NCBI RefSeq assembly: GCF_003724155.1
Contig: NZ_RJJQ01000008.1
Span: 1-64,000 of the forward strand
DNA from: Flexivirga caeni
GTDB taxonomy: Bacteria; Actinomycetota; Actinomycetes; Actinomycetales; Dermatophilaceae
DNA length: 64,000 nt
Direction of reading: 5' to 3'
Below are positions 34,244 through 42,814 of this stretch, piece after piece. The notes beneath the pieces were generated by a model. The model had not been told where the DNA came from and ran no database searches. It saw nothing but the letters and a program-made list of their open reading frames with translations. The position numbers and the translations under genes are program-made. Each line of letters opens with the position of its first letter. Position 1 is the stretch's first letter.

Positions 34244-35347
34244 ATGACGAACGGATGGACGAGCCCCGGGGGTGACTCGCCCGGCGACGGCCGAGGGCAG
34301 CCACCGCCGCCACCGCCACCGCAGTACGGGCAGTACGCGCCGCCACCTCAGTACGGGCAGTACGCGCCACCGCCACCGCAGTACGGGCAGTACGGGCCGC
34401 CGGGCGGTTACTACCCGCCGGTCTACCAGCTCGCGCCGAAGCCGGGCGTCATACCGCTGCGGCCGCTGACGCTCAGCGACATCTTCGGCGGCACGTTCGC
34501 GACGATCCGCGGCAATCCCGGCGCGACCATCGGGTTGTCCGCCGTCATGGCGCTGATCGTGGCCATCCCGTCGGTGATCATCACGGTGCTGCTGGTCAAC
34601 TCCGGCATCACCGTGACCAGCGACTCGGGAGTCACGACCAATCTCGGCAGCCAGATCGGGCTGGGGGTCGGCTCCCTGCTGTCCGGCATCGCCAGCGTGG
34701 TGCTCGGCGGCATGCTGACGACGGTGGTCTCCGAAGCCGTGCTGGGGCACCGGATCACGATCGGCGAGACCTGGCGGCGGGTGCGCGGCCGGCTGCTGCC
34801 GCTGATCGGGCTGATGCTGCTGATCGGCCTGGCGGCCGGGATCGCCGCTGGCATCGTGGTCGGCATCGTGGTGCTGCTGGCCGTAGCCGTCAGTTCCGTC
34901 GCCGCCGTGATCGCCGCAATCGTGCTCGGCCTCGGGCTGTTCGTGGCGATCGTCTGGATCGGACTCAAGGTCTCGCTCGCCGCGCCCGCGGTCGTGCTGG
35001 AGCGCATCGGTCCGGTGGCTGCCCTGCGCCGTTCGTGGTCGCTGACCAATGGCCAGTGGTGGCGGATCCTCGGCATCACCCTGCTGGCGCAGCTCATCGT
35101 CTATGTGATCAGCCAGGTGGTCTCCACTCCGGTCGCGCTCATCGCGGTCGCCATGTCGGGCACGAACGGGCTCAGTGCCGGCGCCGCCGTCGCCGTGCAG
35201 CTCGTCTCGGTGGTGGTGACCGCGTTCACGACACCGTTCACCGCAGGGGTCACCGCGCTGCTCTACCTCGACCAGCGCATCCGCAAGGAGGCGCTCGACG
35301 TCACGTTGATGGAAGCGGCCGGCAAGGACGCCACCGGTGGCAGATGA
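34244..35347 (+). CDS. Multi-pass membrane protein with Pro/Tyr/Gln repeat N terminus (GDPD membrane-domain-like)
   Basis: A 367-residue protein. Residues 1-65 are disordered with PPPQYGQYA repeats. From about 70 (LRPLTLSDIFGGTFATIRGNP) it matches the 'glycerophosphoryl diester phosphodiesterase membrane domain' style of actinobacterial proteins, with six or so long helices and the AALRRSWSLTNGQWWRILG loop. No phosphodiesterase domain is present. It heads the cluster 34244-39350 (with DUF4129, DUF4350, MoxR, DUF58), so an envelope-associated role is inferred. Leaderless ATG start; 11 bp overlap with the next gene. Confidence 0.8.
   Translation: MTNGWTSPGGDSPGDGRGQPPPPPPPQYGQYAPPPQYGQYAPPPPQYGQYGPPGGYYPPVYQLAPKPGVIPLRPLTLSDIFGGTFATIRGNPGATIGLSAVMALIVAIPSVIITVLLVNSGITVTSDSGVTTNLGSQIGLGVGSLLSGIASVVLGGMLTTVVSEAVLGHRITIGETWRRVRGRLLPLIGLMLLIGLAAGIAAGIVVGIVVLLAVAVSSVAAVIAAIVLGLGLFVAIVWIGLKVSLAAPAVVLERIGPVAALRRSWSLTNGQWWRILGITLLAQLIVYVISQVVSTPVALIAVAMSGTNGLSAGAAVAVQLVSVVVTAFTTPFTAGVTALLYLDQRIRKEALDVTLMEAAGKDATGGR
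34310..34402 (+). repeat. In-frame tandem repeat encoding Pro-rich PPPQYGQYA units
   Basis: Three tandem copies of a CCGCAGTACGGGCAGTACG-type unit (24-30 bp period) lie in the 5' part of the membrane protein gene. Copies are nearly identical, so unit number may vary between strains by slippage or recombination. Confidence 0.75.
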
Positions 35348-35972
35348 CGGGGCGCCACTCACCCCCGACGGCAAGACCGCGCACGGCTGGCTGCAGCACG
35401 AGCTGGCCAAACCGGTGTATGCCGACCAGCGCACGCTCCTGCAACGGCTGTGGGATTGGGCGACCAGCCACCTGCAGGACTTGCTGAACGGCGTCGGCAG
35501 CGCGTTGCCCACTTACGTGCTCGTTCCGCTGCTGGTGCTGATCATCGCGCTGGTGGTGTTTGGCCTGACCCGGCTGCGCGGCAACTTCGCCGGCGGGCGC
35601 GGCGCGGCGACCGAGGGTGTGCTGGCCGGTGTCGAGCTCAGCGCCGAACAGTTGCGGCAGCGCGCCGCGCGGGCGGAGGTGGAAGGGAAGCACGCCGCGG
35701 CATACCTCGATTTCTTCCGGGCTGTGGCACGACGGGCGGAGGAACGCGCGCTGCTACTCCCGCAGCCTGGTCGCACGGCGCACGAGGTCGGCATCGAGCT
35801 CGCGCCATTCTTCCCCGGGAGTGTTGGTGAACTCGCCTCTGCGGCAACCCATTTCGATGCGATTCGGTATGGCGCGGCTGACGCGAACGCAAGCGATGTC
35901 GACCGCATCCGGGCTCTCGACCAGGGCATCGAGCACGCCCGCCCGCAGCACCTCGCGCAGGCGGCCGGATGA
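35337..35972 (+). CDS. DUF4129 domain protein
   Basis: A 211-residue protein with a short N-terminal segment, one membrane helix (about residues 59-80, YVLVPLLVLIIALVVFGL) and a C-terminal cytoplasmic region (LSAEQLRQRAARAEVEGKHA, then FRAVARRAEERALL and GRTAHEVGIEL), the DUF4129 pattern. DUF4129 proteins accompany MoxR ATPases and DUF58 proteins in actinobacteria, with unknown function. GTG start overlaps the preceding gene by 11 bp, and the stop overlaps the following start by 4 bp. Confidence 0.82.
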   Translation: MADDGAPLTPDGKTAHGWLQHELAKPVYADQRTLLQRLWDWATSHLQDLLNGVGSALPTYVLVPLLVLIIALVVFGLTRLRGNFAGGRGAATEGVLAGVELSAEQLRQRAARAEVEGKHAAAYLDFFRAVARRAEERALLLPQPGRTAHEVGIELAPFFPGSVGELASAATHFDAIRYGAADANASDVDRIRALDQGIEHARPQHLAQAAG

Positions 35973-37066
35973 TCACCCGCAGCCGGGTCGTCCTGACGGC
36001 GATCGGCGGGGTCCTCGTGCTGATCCTTGTCGGGGTCGTGCTGCTGGCGCCCCGCACCACCGACCAGCCGCTCGACCCTGACTCGGCACAAGGAGATGGA
36101 ACGCGCGCCGTCGCCCAGGTGCTCGATCAGCATGGCGTGCACGTCTCGGTCGTGCGTCGCGCGGCCGGCTTGCGGGGGGTCGCGGGCGCGACGGTCGTGC
36201 TGACCCGCCCGGAGCTGCTGTCCGCGGCGTCACTACGACGCACCATGGCGGCCGCAGCGGGTGCGCGGCGGCTGGTCATCGTCGATGCCGACCCGCAGGT
36301 CGTCGACGCGTTGCAGCTTCCCGTTTCGGGGCTGGAACCCGTTGACAGTAAACCGGATCCATACTGCACTGTGCCGTGGCTGACCGGCCTGCGGCTGACT
36401 TTCGCCGACATCTCCTACACGCCGGAGGAGGGCGCGACCTGTTTCGGCGAGGGTGGCTCCGGCGCGATCGCGGTGCTGCCGGCGAGTGACCAGACACCGG
36501 AGACGGTGCTGCTCGGCAGCCGCGCCGCGCTCACCAACAAGACGATCACCTCTGCGGACAATGCCGCGATCGCCCTGCGCATCCTCGGCTCCGCCGACCG
36601 GGTCGTCTGGCTGGCGCCGACGCTCGCCACCGCGGACAACCCCCACACGCAGGGCGCGAAGTGGCCCGCCTGGTTCAGGCCGGGCGTGTGGCTCGCCGGC
36701 GCCGTGGTGCTGGTCGTGATGCTCTGGCGCGGAAGGCGGTTCGGCCGCCTCGCCGTCGAACCGCTGCCCGTGGTGGTGCCCTCCGACGAGACAACCCGCA
36801 GCCGCGGTCAGCTCTATCGCAAGGCCCGAGACCGCTCCCGGGCTCTCGCCGTGCTCCGTATGGCGACCCGGGCTCGGCTGGCCCGCTATCTCGGGCTGGC
36901 CGCGAACGCACCACCTGACGAACTCGTGGCGCGCACCAGCCAGGCGGCTGGGAGCGACCCACGACATACCGCCGAATTGCTTTACGGCACAGACCCGCCC
37001 GACGAGGCATCCATGGTCACCCTCGCGCAAGACTTGCACCAGCTGGAAAGGCAGGTACGACGATGA
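35969..37066 (+). CDS. DUF4350 domain membrane protein
   Basis: A 365-residue protein with membrane helices at about 8-28 and 240-258. The extracytoplasmic part (about 30-235) carries the DUF4350 fold: GTRAVAQVLDQHGVHVSVVR, RLVIVDADPQVVDAL and a late AIALRILGSADRVVWLAP. Two Cys residues (in DPYCTVPW and GATCFGEGG) could form a disulfide outside the cell. The cytoplasmic end is helical and basic. DUF4350 has a GATase-like fold and is a regular member of MoxR-DUF58 loci. ATGA overlaps on both sides. Confidence 0.8.
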   Translation: MITRSRVVLTAIGGVLVLILVGVVLLAPRTTDQPLDPDSAQGDGTRAVAQVLDQHGVHVSVVRRAAGLRGVAGATVVLTRPELLSAASLRRTMAAAAGARRLVIVDADPQVVDALQLPVSGLEPVDSKPDPYCTVPWLTGLRLTFADISYTPEEGATCFGEGGSGAIAVLPASDQTPETVLLGSRAALTNKTITSADNAAIALRILGSADRVVWLAPTLATADNPHTQGAKWPAWFRPGVWLAGAVVLVVMLWRGRRFGRLAVEPLPVVVPSDETTRSRGQLYRKARDRSRALAVLRMATRARLARYLGLAANAPPDELVARTSQAAGSDPRHTAELLYGTDPPDEASMVTLAQDLHQLERQVRR

Positions 37067-38046
37067 CATCGCTCTCCCCCGACCAAGCTGCCGCCGCGCA
37101 GCGCGCCCGCGACGCGCTCGGCGCGGTGCGCGGCGAGGTCGCCAAGGCGGTGGTCGGGCAAGACGCGGCCGTGTCCGCGCTGGTGATCGCCCTGCTGGCG
37201 CGCGGACACGTGCTGCTCGAGGGTGTGCCGGGCGTGGCCAAGACCTTGCTCGTGAGGTCGCTGGCCGCGGCACTCTCGATCGAGACCAAGCGCGTCCAGT
37301 TCACGCCTGACCTGATGCCCGGCGACATCACCGGATCTCTCGTATTCGACTCGGGCACTTCGGAATTCACCTTCCGGCCAGGTCCGGTCTTTACCAATCT
37401 GCTGCTGGCTGACGAGATCAACCGCACCCCGCCCAAGACACAGTCGGCGTTGCTGGAGGCGATGGAGGAACGCCAGGTGTCCGTCGACGGCGTCGCGCGG
37501 CAGCTGCCGGCTCCGTTCATGGTCGCCGCCACCCAGAACCCGGTCGAATACGAAGGCACCTATCCGCTCCCCGAAGCACAGCTCGACCGCTTCCTGATGA
37601 AGGTGTCGATGCCGCTGCCCGCGCGCGACGTCGAGCTGGAGATGCTGCGCCGGCACGCGGTCGGCTTCGACCCCAAAGACCTTGCCACCGCAGGGATCCG
37701 GCCCGTAGCGACCGCAGCCGACCTCGCGGCCGGTGCCGCCGCGGTGCAACAGGTGCAGGTGCGTGACGACGTCGCGGCATACATCGTCGACATCGCGAGA
37801 GCGACCCGCAACTCGCCGTCGCTGTCGCTCGGCGCGAGCCCCCGGGCGACCACCGCGCTGCTGGCGACCAGCCGCGCCTGGGCGTGGCTGTCCGGGCGCG
37901 AATTCGTCACGCCCGACGACGTGAAGTCGATGGCGCGTCCGACGCTGACGCACCGGCTGCAGCTGCGGCCGGAGGCGGAGCTCGAAGGCGTCGGCGCAGC
38001 AACGGTGCTCGACGCCGCGGTCGGCTCGGTCCCCGTGCCGCGGTAG
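37063..38046 (+). CDS. MoxR-type AAA+ ATPase
   Basis: A 327-residue cytosolic AAA+ chaperone-like ATPase. Walker A is LLEGVPGVAKTLL, Walker B LLADEINRTPPKTQ, the sensor region ATQNPVEYEGTYPLPEAQLD with the following Arg, and the lid domain contains SLGASPRATTALL. MoxR proteins help assemble or activate partner complexes, usually with VWA or DUF58 proteins; here DUF58 follows 8 bp later. ATGA overlap with the DUF4350 gene. Substrate complex not known. Confidence 0.93.
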   Translation: MTSLSPDQAAAAQRARDALGAVRGEVAKAVVGQDAAVSALVIALLARGHVLLEGVPGVAKTLLVRSLAAALSIETKRVQFTPDLMPGDITGSLVFDSGTSEFTFRPGPVFTNLLLADEINRTPPKTQSALLEAMEERQVSVDGVARQLPAPFMVAATQNPVEYEGTYPLPEAQLDRFLMKVSMPLPARDVELEMLRRHAVGFDPKDLATAGIRPVATAADLAAGAAAVQQVQVRDDVAAYIVDIARATRNSPSLSLGASPRATTALLATSRAWAWLSGREFVTPDDVKSMARPTLTHRLQLRPEAELEGVGAATVLDAAVGSVPVPR

Positions 38047-38054
38047 GCCTTCGT

Positions 38055-39350
38055 ATGGCGATCACCGGACGCACGGCGCTGCTCACCGCCCTCGGCATGG
38101 TGGCGGTGCTGGTGCACCCTGCGGTCAGCACGGTGTTCTGGTGGCTGCTGGTGGTGGCAGCCCTCGTCGGGGTCGACCTGTGGCTCGCACCGTCGACGGA
38201 ATCCGTTGCTGCCGAACGGTCCCCGGTGCGCCCGGTCCGGCTGGGCGAGTCGTCCAGCAGCATGCTGACGGTGCGCAACACCGGCAACCGGACCGTCCGC
38301 GGAGCCGTTCGCGACGCCTGGCAGCCGTCGGCGGGAGCGGGCGTCACGCGGATGGCGCTGCGGCTGCGGCCCGGTGAACAGGCGCGCCAGGTGATCGAGC
38401 TGACGCCGACCCGCCGGGGCGACCGGAGCGCGGACCGCCTCACCGTGCGTACCGCGGGGCCGCTCGGGCTTGCGCTGCGGCAGCGTTCCCGCGAGGTGCC
38501 GGGCGTGGTGCGCGCGCTGCCCAGCTTTCCGTCCCGGCGTCACCTGCCGAGCCGGATGGCCCAGCTGCGGCAGCTCGACGGCCGCTCGGCGGTGCGAATC
38601 CGCGGTCAGGGCACCGAGTTCGACTCCTTGCGGGATTACGTCGACGGGGACGACGTACGCAGCATCGACTGGCGCGCGACCGCCCGCCGGCAACGCCCGG
38701 TGGTGCGCACCTGGCAGCCCGAGCGCGACCGGCACATCGTGATCCTGCTCGACACCTCCCGCACCTCGGCCGCCCGCATCGGCGACGGAACCCGGCTGGA
38801 TGCCGGAATGGACGCGGCCCTGCTGCTCACGGCGCTCGCGTCGCGGGCCGGCGACCGGGTCGACTTCCTGGCCGGCGATCGCCGGATCCGGGCCCGAGTC
38901 ACCGGCATCTCCGATCGCGCGGAGCTGATGCACACCGTCATCAACGCCATGGCACCGCTGGAATCCGCTCTCGTGGAAGCAAACTGGCGTGGCCTCATCG
39001 GTGCCGAAGGCGTGATCCCGAAGCGGCGTTCACTCGTCGTGCTGATCACGCCGCTGGAGCCCGCGGCGATCCAGGAAGGACTGCTGCCCGTCCTCGCGAC
39101 CGCCGCCACCCGCCACCGGGTGATCCTTGCGTCGGTCGCCGACCCCGGCATACGGGCCATGAGCACCCAGCGCGGCACCGCCGCCGAGGTGTATGACGCC
39201 AGCGCCGCCGAACGCACCGAACTGCTCCGCCTCGACACCCGCACCGCACTGGAGCGGCTCGGCGTCACGGTGCTCGACGAGGAGCCGGACGCCCTCCCCC
39301 TCGCCCTCGTCGACCACTACTTGCTGCTGAAGAGTGGCGGCCTGCTGTAG
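38055..39350 (+). CDS. DUF58 domain-containing protein, MoxR partner
   Basis: A 431-residue protein. Two N-terminal helices (about 8-45) precede a beta-rich stretch, then the DUF58 core GTEFDSLRDYVDGDD and VRSIDWRATARRQRPVVR, and a VWA-like fold beginning HIVILLDTSRTSA, whose DxSxx arrangement resembles a MIDAS site (Asp-Thr-Ser). It is the usual partner of MoxR. Start at ATG 38055, which lies inside a GTATGGC 7-mer; the frame extends back to 37884 inside moxR without support. It is convergent with the spoIIM-like gene. Confidence 0.88.
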   Translation: MAITGRTALLTALGMVAVLVHPAVSTVFWWLLVVAALVGVDLWLAPSTESVAAERSPVRPVRLGESSSSMLTVRNTGNRTVRGAVRDAWQPSAGAGVTRMALRLRPGEQARQVIELTPTRRGDRSADRLTVRTAGPLGLALRQRSREVPGVVRALPSFPSRRHLPSRMAQLRQLDGRSAVRIRGQGTEFDSLRDYVDGDDVRSIDWRATARRQRPVVRTWQPERDRHIVILLDTSRTSAARIGDGTRLDAGMDAALLLTALASRAGDRVDFLAGDRRIRARVTGISDRAELMHTVINAMAPLESALVEANWRGLIGAEGVIPKRRSLVVLITPLEPAAIQEGLLPVLATAATRHRVILASVADPGIRAMSTQRGTAAEVYDASAAERTELLRLDTRTALERLGVTVLDEEPDALPLALVDHYLLLKSGGLL

Positions 39351-39539: not shown

Positions 39540-40535
39540 TCAACCCGCAACAGGGCGGACGGCGCTGAGATCCTGCGCGGTGACGTCGCCGGTGTAGCCC
39601 TCGCGCACGGCGCGGCGCCCGAGCACGAAGACGTAGGTGAGGAAGATGATCTCGGCCAGCACGCCGATGCCCACCCGCACGACGGTGGGCAGCCCGGACG
39701 GCGTCACGAACGCCTCGATCGCACCGCTGACGAGCAGCACGCCGATCAGCCCGAGCGCCACGACCACGAGTGACCGCCCCTCGTGCGCCATCGCGTCGGC
39801 GCGGGTGCGTCCGCCGGGTTCGACCCAGGACCAGAAGAGCCGCAGGCCGCAGCCGGCGGCAATGAAAACCGCTGTCAATTCGAGGATTCCATGCGGCAGG
39901 ATCAGCCCGAAAAATTCCGCGCCGTGGCCGTAGGACACCATGATGCCGCCCTGAACCCCGACGTTCACGACGTTGTTCCAGAGCACGTACGCAATGGGGA
40001 AACCGAGCACGCCGAACGCGATCGAGATGGCCGCCACCCACACGTTGTTCGTCCAGACACGCGCCGCGAAATCGGTCCCGCCATACTCCGAGTAGTAGTG
40101 CCGGAAGTCGTGGCCCACCAGTTGCTGCGCGGCCCCCGGCGAGATGAACGACGTCTGCACCGACGGATTGCGCGCCACCCAGACACCGATGACCAGCGCC
40201 GCCGCAACATTGACCGCCGCCGTGGTGATCCACCACCAGCGCGTGCGGTAGAGCACCGCCGGAAGCTCCCGGATGACGAAATCGCCGGCCCGCGACCACG
40301 AGAGCGTCCGCCGGCGCAGCGACGCGGTGCGCGCCTTCGCCAGCACTGTCGACAGATATTGCAGCACCGTGGGATCCGGGGCCGCGGAACGCAGGATGGA
40401 CAAGTGGGTTGCCACCCGCTGGTAGAGGTCGAGCAATTCGTCGGCCTCGGCGCCGGTGAGCGCACGGCGGCCGGCGAGCGAGCGCAGCCGCTCCCACTCC
40501 CCGTAGTGCGCCGAGACGAACGCGTCGAGGTCCAC
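39540..40535 (-). CDS. SpoIIM (stage II sporulation protein M) family membrane protein
   Basis: A 331-residue protein. The cytoplasmic N terminus (1-95) contains WERLRSLAGRRALTGAEADE and LDLYQRVATHLSILRS; about five membrane helices follow, with the SpoIIM-like block NNVWVAAISIAFGVLGFPIA and GAEFFGLILPHGILELTAVF. This organism need not sporulate: SpoIIM homologues accompany RDD and MoxR-DUF58 genes in many non-sporing actinobacteria. GTG at 40535 lies 8 nt behind TATAGT, and the divergent RDD gene starts 24 bp away. Confidence 0.88.
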   Translation of the reverse strand: MDLDAFVSAHYGEWERLRSLAGRRALTGAEADELLDLYQRVATHLSILRSAAPDPTVLQYLSTVLAKARTASLRRRTLSWSRAGDFVIRELPAVLYRTRWWWITTAAVNVAAALVIGVWVARNPSVQTSFISPGAAQQLVGHDFRHYYSEYGGTDFAARVWTNNVWVAAISIAFGVLGFPIAYVLWNNVVNVGVQGGIMVSYGHGAEFFGLILPHGILELTAVFIAAGCGLRLFWSWVEPGGRTRADAMAHEGRSLVVVALGLIGVLLVSGAIEAFVTPSGLPTVVRVGIGVLAEIIFLTYVFVLGRRAVREGYTGDVTAQDLSAVRPVAG

Positions 40536-40543
40536 GCCGAGTA

Positions 40544-40553
40544 ACTATAGGCT
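40544..40553. promoter_or_regulatory. Overlapping divergent -10 boxes of two leaderless genes
   Basis: On the minus strand TATAGT (40549-40544) ends 8 nt before the GTG at 40535; on the plus strand TAGGCT (40548-40553) ends 6 nt before the ATG at 40560. The boxes share two base pairs, so one polymerase must exclude the other. Neither gene has a ribosome binding site. Confidence 0.65.
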
Positions 40554-40559
40554 GCGGAC

Positions 40560-41417
40560 ATGCCCGCAGACATCGGCACGACACCCGCGCGTCCGCTGCG
40601 CGGCGGCGTCGACGACCTGCTGGTGACCGGCGAAGCGGTGCTGATCGACATCCCCGCCGCGAGCCTCCCGAGCCGCCTCCTGGCGGCGCTGATCGACTGG
40701 GCGCTCTATTTCCTCGTCCTGTTCGGGCTCTATCTGTTGCTGATCTTCACCTCCGGCGACAGCAGCAGTGCCACCTTCAGCACGCTCATGCTGCTGGCCA
40801 CGGTGACCTGCGTGCTCGTGCTGCCCGTGACGATCGAGACGCTCACGCGGGGCAGTTCGCTCGGCAAGCTGATCCTGAAACTGCGCGTAGTGCGCGACGA
40901 CGGCGGCCCGATCGTCTTCCGGCACGCCTTCGTGCGCGGACTGGTCGGGGTGATCGAGATCGTCTTCACCTCAGGGGTCGTCGCTGTCATAGCGTCGGTC
41001 TGCAATGCCCGCGGGAAGCGGCTCGGCGACTTCGCCGCCGGCACGTATGTCGTGCGCGAGCAGACCGGCATGAAGCTGGTCCCGCCACCACCGGCGCCGC
41101 CATACCTGCGCGACTGGGCGGTCCACGCCGACCTCGCGCCGCTGCCCGACGGGCTGGCACTGGCGATCCGGCAGTTCCTGATCCGCCGCGCCGCCCTCAC
41201 CCCGGCCGCCCGAACTGCCATGACTACCAACCTGATGCAGCAGGTGATGCCGCTCGTCGCACCTCCCCCGCCGCCCGCACATCCGGAGGACGTGCTGTCC
41301 GCGGTGCTCACGGCGCGCAGCGACCGGGAGGCTGCCCGGCTGCGCCGAGAGCAGGCCATCCGGGAACGCCTGCTCCCGCCGGACCCGCTGGGCCGGCGCC
41401 CTAGTAGCCGGGCTTGA
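40560..41417 (+). CDS. RDD family membrane protein
   Basis: A 285-residue protein. The RDD domain covers about residues 38-165: [20 protein letters not shown] (Arg, Asp-type start), [20 protein letters not shown] and [15 protein letters not shown], with about three helices. A C-terminal soluble region (about 180-285) with Pro-rich spacers and an Arg-rich end may be cytoplasmic. RDD proteins include putative Na+/H+ or substrate transporters, mostly unproven. It pairs divergently with SpoIIM and shares 17 bp at its 3' end with the adenosine deaminase gene. Confidence 0.88.
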
Positions 41418-42465
41418 CGACGTCCTCGATGATCGCGAGCCGCTCGTCGAAGGGCAGGAACGCCGACTTCATCGCGTTGATGGTGACCCACCGCAGATCG
41501 TCCACGCTCCACCCCGCCTCGTCGACCAGCAACTGCATCTCACGGGACATCGAGGTGCCGCTCATCAGCCGGTTGTCGGTGTTGACGGTGACCCGGAACC
41601 GCAGGTCTTTCAGGTGCGAGATCGGATGTGTCGCAATGGATTCGGCGGCACCCGTCTGCAGGTTGGAGGACGGGCACATCTCGAGCGGGATGCGCGTGTC
41701 GCGGACGTATGCCGCCAGCCGCCCCAACTGCTCATGGTTGGTCCCGACACCGGTGATGTCATCCATGATGCGCACCCCGTGCCCGAGCCGTTCGGCGCCG
41801 CACCACTGGATCGCCTCCCAGATGCTCGGCAGCCCGAAGGCTTCCCCCGCGTGGATGGTGAAGTGCGCGTTCTCGCGCTGGAGGTATTCGAACGCGTCCA
41901 GGTGCCGCGTGGGCGGGAAGCCGGCCTCGGCGCCGGCGATGTCGAAACCGGCAACCCCGTCGTCGCGGTAACGCACTGCGAGCCGGGCGATCTCGGTGGA
42001 TTTCGCGGCGTGACGCATGGCGGTCAGCAGAGCGCGCACGACGATCGTGCCGCCGCTCGCGCGCTCGCCGTCGCGGAAGCCGGCATTGACGGCCTCGACG
42101 ACCTCCTCGAGCGCAAGCCCGCCCGCGAGGTGCTGCTCGGGCGCGTAGCGCACCTCGGCGTAGACGACGCCGTCTGCTGCGAGGTCCTGCGCGCATTCGG
42201 ACGCCACCCGCCGCAACTGTTCCGCGGTCTGCATCACCGCGACCGAGTGGTCGAACGTCTCGAGATAGCGCACGAGGGATCCGGAGTCCGCGGCGTCGCG
42301 GAACCACCTGCCGAGTGCGACCGGGTCGGTCTCCGGCAGCGCGTCGTAGCCGCTCTCGAGTGCCAGCTCGATGATCGTCGCCGGCCGCAGGCCACCGTCC
42401 AGGTGGTCGTGCAACAGCACCTTCGGCAGGGCCAGGATCTCGGGGCGGATGTCGGATTCACTCAT
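41401..42465 (-). CDS. add: Adenosine deaminase
   Basis: A 354-residue zinc hydrolase converting (deoxy)adenosine to (deoxy)inosine. The first metal motif is [13 protein letters not shown] (His19, His21), then TIHAGEAFG (His and catalytic Glu), RLGHGVRI and the last metal Asp in [13 protein letters not shown]. Length is normal. ATG at 42465 is used; upstream codons belong to the cupin gene, which it overlaps by 8 bp. Inosine formed feeds the phosphorylase at 27100. It is convergent with the RDD gene. Confidence 0.95.
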
Positions 42466-42814
42466 CACGGTTGACCGTTTCGGGAGAGAAGGCGGGCATG
42501 CAGACGGCGAAGTAGTCGGCACCGTCCGGGCCGGTGGAGTAGCGAATGCGTTCGCCCGCAGTGGTTTTCAGGGATTGTCCGGCCGTGACCGTCGTGGTCT
42601 CGCCGGCGCCGTGCTCGACGATGACGGACCCGCTCAGCACCACGGTGAACTCGTCGAACTCCGGCGTCTGGAACGGCTCCGACCAATTTGGCGGCGCCTG
42701 CATGTGGGCGACGCTGACCTGTCCTTCGCCGGTGCTGGCCGCACCGATGTGCTCATCGATGATCTTGCCGCCGGGGACGGGGATGCGGACCGGTTCGGTG
42801 TAACGGGTGACCAT
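42458..42814 (-). CDS. Small cupin-domain protein
   Basis: A 118-residue single beta-barrel protein: [20 protein letters not shown] is the first cupin motif in reduced form and [19 protein letters not shown] the second. Metal-binding His residues are largely missing from the first motif, so metal dependence is doubtful. It precedes add with an 8-bp overlap and may bind a nucleoside-derived ligand. Leaderless ATG start behind TAGAGT. Confidence 0.78.

Follow-up and report, generated by a model that had tools for sequence, protein, structure and literature searches.

A candidate bidirectional promoter, predicted leaderless in both directions, between divergent spoIIM-like and RDD genes of Flexivirga caeni

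Does an overlap of two -10 boxes between divergent genes make the cell choose between them? The question is raised by a locus in the window, by which we mean the whole 64,000-nt stretch of Flexivirga caeni DNA analysed here (contig NZ_RJJQ01000008.1, positions 1 to 64,000), where genes for a SpoIIM-like and an RDD-family membrane protein are read away from each other. The original prediction described both genes as leaderless, held that their overlapping boxes prevent both promoters from being melted at once, and read the arrangement as a built-in choice between two membrane proteins. Some caution is due at the outset: two overlapping boxes alone do not imply a choice between two genes.

The intergenic region and its two boxes

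The layout had been predicted correctly, to the base: the genes are divergent, 24 bp separate the minus-strand GTG from the plus-strand ATG (Table 1), and TATAGT and TAGGCT overlap by 2 bp. The bases common to both are the TA at 40548-40549, which is identical read on either strand and supplies the first two positions of each box, so that the two directions have a shared -10 element as bidirectional promoters do. The spacers of 8 nt (spoIIM) and 6 nt (RDD) lie within the leaderless-type range of 6-8 nt, where the genome's own peak is also found; the 8 on the spoIIM side is off the optimum and less usual than 6 or 7. Between the predicted starts, 40535 and 40560, the distance is 25 bp, the upper limit of the 7-25 bp by which bidirectional promoters were counted in Salmonella (PMC10268837).

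The palindrome CTATAG places an in-frame TAG four codons upstream of the spoIIM start and of the RDD start, so that neither gene can begin further upstream; as it holds the stops of both frames, the promoter also closes both reading frames. Later in-frame starts are GTG at 40623 and 40638 for RDD and TTG at 40436 for spoIIM, and the PF01944 match begins at residue 1 of SpoIIM in 71 of 73 loci, the window included. Because both genes are flanked by convergent neighbours, DUF58 on the spoIIM side and an adenosine deaminase gene that overlaps the RDD 3' end, the space between the two start codons is their evident promoter. A compact plus-strand row at 34244-39350 (GPDPase_memb, DUF4129, DUF4350, MoxR-type ATPase, DUF58), in which the gene ends overlap or nearly touch, adjoins the pair.

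Table 1. Features of the locus (window coordinates)
Feature	Position	Strand	Description
DUF58 gene	38055..39350	+	PF01882 E 1.1e-21; convergent with spoIIM; start 38055 chosen by us, open frame listed from 37884
SpoIIM-family membrane protein gene	39540..40535	-	331 aa; GTG start (first base 40535); predicted leaderless; PF01944 E 1.5e-40
Intergenic region	40536..40559	.	24 bp; entire space separating the two start codons
ANNNTANNNT element	40544..40553	.	10 bp; two divergent -10 boxes with one common TA; 23-bp bidirectional class
-10 box TATAGT, spoIIM direction	40544..40549	-	Ends 8 nt upstream of GTG
Palindrome CTATAG	40545..40550	.	Supplies an upstream in-frame TAG to both frames: 40548-40550 on plus, 40547-40545 on minus
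-10 box TAGGCT, RDD direction	40548..40553	+	Ends 6 nt upstream of ATG
RDD-family membrane protein gene	40560..41417	+	285 aa; ATG start (first base 40560); predicted leaderless; PF06271 E 1.3e-15
Adenosine deaminase gene	41401..42522	-	PF00962 E 3.3e-111; convergent with RDD gene, overlaps its 3' end

The signature in the genome and across relatives

How far such boxes could arise by chance was gauged in a 21% sample of the genome (0.864 Mb; 637 genes, 80% coding, 1812 candidate ATG/GTG starts), with a home-made gene caller whose start calls are rough. Upstream of these candidate starts, TANNNT was counted 121 times at 6-8 nt, where its frequency at spacings 10-30 would predict 11.7; the counts by spacer were 61 at 6, 46 at 7 and 14 at 8, compared with an average of 3.9 for each spacer in 10-30, and at spacer 8 alone, the window's minus-side spacing, the excess is weaker (14 vs about 4). 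Leaderless TANNNT promoters appear to be widely used in this genome. The chance of boxes before both starts of one pair is about 4e-5, or 0.004 across the 106 divergent pairs called, and judged by position the double box in ANNNTANNNT is not a chance match. TANNNT at spacer 5-9 occurs on both sides in 13 of the 106 pairs when any in-frame start within a wide range is accepted; within the sample, the boxes overlap in the window pair alone, and the next closest two-sided pair has its starts 34 bp apart. A pattern scan of the sample for the full architecture likewise returned the window locus as sole match. By a rough, hand-made composition estimate, a pattern this loose would turn up a few times by chance; taken alone it proves nothing, and position and conservation carry the argument.

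The two genes travel together. The RDD protein was matched in 78 of 98 genomes, the window's own included, strongly in 76, and SpoIIM in 76; both are found in 76 and neither in 22, and the strong sets are identical, the weak RDD matches in G038 (8e-4) and G096 (4e-6) being counted as other RDD proteins. Every one of the 77 strong RDD loci (two of them in G097) keeps the divergent order with spoIIM, seen directly at 73 and by coordinates at 4. This co-occurrence and fixed order suggest that the SpoIIM-like and RDD proteins are partners rather than alternatives. In G056, G065, G073 and G084, about 1.6-2.1 kb separates the genes, which are still divergent. A plasmid search for spoIIM relatives gave three actinobacterial records. 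In the FastTree tree, SpoIIM proteins from Gordonia (L103, L106, L118) cluster with the window's family, possibly through horizontal transfer or as a tree artefact.

Of the 73 loci, window included, 58 carry TANNNT upstream of spoIIM at spacer 6-8 (38 at 6, 18 at 7, 2 at 8), and five further matches occur at other spacings within 60 nt. Within the genus, all five members compared keep the TA-sharing element and have a -10 box 6-7 nt upstream of the RDD start. Of 14 loci in the surrounding clade, whose fork support of 83 is not strong, 12 have the element as well; the 12 aligned clade rows were selected for the element, so the invariance of A, TA and T among them is circular.

A wider and stricter count, which took TANNNT at spacer 5-9 on both sides with no preference for overlap, covered 175 distinct loci, a set that is not random (up to 30 loci from the search of the class, the 80 best named ones and others picked by hand). 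A strict box precedes spoIIM in 116 of them and RDD in 93; 82 have one on each side. Among these two-box loci, 24 share bases, always exactly 2 bp, and 58 have boxes apart, four of them with one base between the boxes. The overlap is therefore not kept wherever both promoters exist, as an either/or switch would have it, and since the boxes stand apart in 58 of 82 loci, the pair can function without it. The TA-sharing loci, which include Nocardioides (5), Marmoricola and Amycolatopsis, are related and not independent. Across the strict two-box set, start-to-start distances cluster at 22-26 (24 loci); 27-28 is empty and six loci fall at 29-30. No locus of this set has a distance of 31, 33, 38 or 39 either, and as the loci are related, little can be read into single gaps. 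On the FastTree SpoIIM tree the sharing state changes at least 15 times among the 82 loci, against a mean of 21.4 (range 18-24) in 60 shuffles; on this tree, lineages retain TA-sharing for a time and the state changes frequently.

Under a more permissive rule, five bases are shared in another ten loci, an 18-bp form. This rule (any base, then A, with T at position 6, on one side and only if the boxes overlap) favoured overlap, and both the ten loci and the start distances 19-20 depend on it; the strict recount was used instead. In L234-L237 (genus code g83) a single base separates the boxes, such as TAGGAT and TAGCGT, and the start codons lie at a distance of 29-30 bp. The leaderless arrangement does not extend to every locus, because 48 of the 175 loci have no strict box on either side, 23 of them Streptomyces. 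These are all 23 distinct Streptomyces loci in rows L117-L163, where TANNNT at spacer 5-9 is absent from both sides and the genes are still divergent. In L045, L054, L056 and L068, TANNNTG adjoins spoIIM and the likely RDD start comes only after a purine-rich stretch, some tens of bases further downstream, as judged by eye; the spoIIM side is possibly leaderless there and the RDD side leadered.

Co-expression weighed against other readings

The computed anatomy, positional signature, conservation, recurrence and gene co-occurrence describe, at the level of sequence, a well-formed, conserved bidirectional promoter that is predicted to be leaderless on both sides; the predicted absence of leaders draws support from the position of the boxes, the genome-wide signature and conservation. 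We think it likely that 40544-40553 works as a TA-sharing promoter of the 23-bp kind that co-expresses both proteins, the overlap being compaction with no switch at basal activity. From these data we infer the start sites and the sigma factor: RNA polymerase, probably with the housekeeping sigma factor, would bind the symmetric element either way, one at a time, and transcription would begin at, or a base or two from, each start codon, giving two leaderless mRNAs, one for the spoIIM-like and one for the RDD gene. Read-through from a neighbouring operon would not be expected, each gene ending against a convergent neighbour. We also infer the output ratio, the protein partnership and the absence of a switch: two proteins, probably of one membrane system, would be co-expressed from one site, and the overlap would most likely be a compaction that evolution easily reaches and leaves, not a switch at basal activity. 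Coupling between the two outputs would be expected only if one direction were activated, by analogy with E. coli, a member of another phylum.

Other readings have to be set against this one. Transcription could start elsewhere, inside the opposite gene, with one or both boxes unused and the mRNAs carrying leaders. In L054, L056 and L068 the likely RDD start does lie downstream, behind the purine-rich stretch seen by eye. A consensus TTGACA/TATAAT scan of 40300-40800 found no -35-containing promoter at the locus, as might be cited for this reading too; the scan requires a -35 box and is blind to this promoter type, and a search by eye for a -35 box within both coding sequences gave nothing convincing. 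Such leadered transcripts are nevertheless very improbable given the sharp spacer peaks, upstream of spoIIM and genome-wide, the box 6-7 nt before the RDD start in all five genus members, and the upstream stops at both genes. Only slightly less improbable is a selected either/or device by which the cell would choose the SpoIIM-like or the RDD protein. Mutual exclusion of two polymerases is expected, in line with the original prediction, and is stated for this promoter class, and strong activation of one side can repress the other direction (PMC12825309); TA-sharing also carries phylogenetic signal, its at least 15 changes lying below the shuffle mean and below the minimum of 18. Choice at this promoter, however, does not follow from exclusion. 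In none of the five bidirectional promoters tested in E. coli did the two directions compete markedly at basal activity, and when one side was weakened the other hardly changed; competition or exclusion set in once one direction was made strong or activated, and at the single promoter examined for this the competition reduced noise (PMC12825309). The genes are, moreover, present or absent together in all 98 genomes, and the majority of two-box loci have their boxes apart. Rv3694c and Rv3695 are the presumed M. tuberculosis orthologues of the pair. A single list of proteins that co-purify with the divisome protein Rv0954 names the two of them along with many more membrane proteins (PMC8093794); if the orthology holds, this too speaks, more weakly, against alternatives. 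We have consequently rejected classing the locus as a switch, on the E. coli basal data, the co-occurrence and the separated boxes; a choice that appears only under some activator is still conceivable. The likelier account is co-expression, the overlap being a compaction that is tolerated and has often evolved anew.

A further reading keeps the compaction and drops the rest: independent leaderless promoters would have been brought close by loss of spacer, and the shared TA would be without any consequence. This is possible, if clearly less probable than the promoter that we propose. It fits the frequent interchange of shared and apart states on the tree, and the single overlap among the 13 two-box divergent pairs of the genome sample. 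Against it, the tight state is kept throughout the genus and in most of the surrounding clade, and start distances pile up at 22-26, so that something may keep it; with related loci, neither observation is proof.

The proposed co-expressing promoter also opens a wider question, which is the main interest of the locus: the pair may offer a natural series for asking if -10 sharing is selected. Since leaderless starts can be predicted, its promoter geometry can be read from sequence, and overlapping, abutting and separate forms are found in related species. More tentatively, and with considerable doubt on our side, this one gene pair may run across the actinobacteria as a series from promoters far apart, through abutting ones, to the TA-shared 23-bp form and perhaps a five-base 18-bp form, the tight form being reached repeatedly and the shared -10 itself being selected. 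If so, the 22-26 bp pile-up would reflect a selected shared -10, probably tying the outputs of partner membrane proteins together or quieting their noise. No decision between selection and accident for a shared -10 box was found in the literature examined.

Comparison with known promoters and gene neighbourhoods

A literature search gave no paper on this promoter among the matches listed, and absence there is not absence from print. The surroundings of the gene are familiar: neighbourhoods of SpoIIM (COG1300) contain a vWA protein and a COG0714 AAA+ ATPase (PMC5898192), much as the window SpoIIM adjoins DUF58 and MoxR-type genes. That study deals with protein neighbourhoods and not with promoters, and RDD is absent from its main text.

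Leaderless TANNNT promoters are also known in the actinobacteria. In a mapped actinobacterial transcriptome, TANNNT is centred 7-12 bp before 73% of primary starts, with no conserved -35, 26% of the genes that have a primary start are leaderless, and divergent promoters in close juxtaposition are termed a common feature (PMC3898074). One divergent pair there, prpD (Rv1130)/Rv1129c, has two leaderless mRNAs that are induced together (PMC3898074). The SpoIIM/RDD pair and a shared -10 are not described in the parts of that paper drawn on here, and the word 'bidirectional' is absent from its main text.

The closest likeness is to bidirectional promoters, where the symmetry of the -10 lets polymerase bind in either orientation, one at a time, and where common start spacings are 18, 10 and 23 bp, with small deviations allowed (PMC12825309). 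As in these, the window has two divergent predicted starts around a shared symmetric -10, and TA is shared as the 23-bp form requires. The predicted window spacing is 25 bp, with two extra bases on the minus side, a geometry derived from the hexamer positions. There are some differences: (i), both window mRNAs are predicted to be leaderless and protein-coding, so that the spacing of start sites is also that of start codons; (ii), the window boxes are TANNNT without a recognised -35, and their starts are predicted. The class itself is already known, and the window locus adds a candidate member to it.
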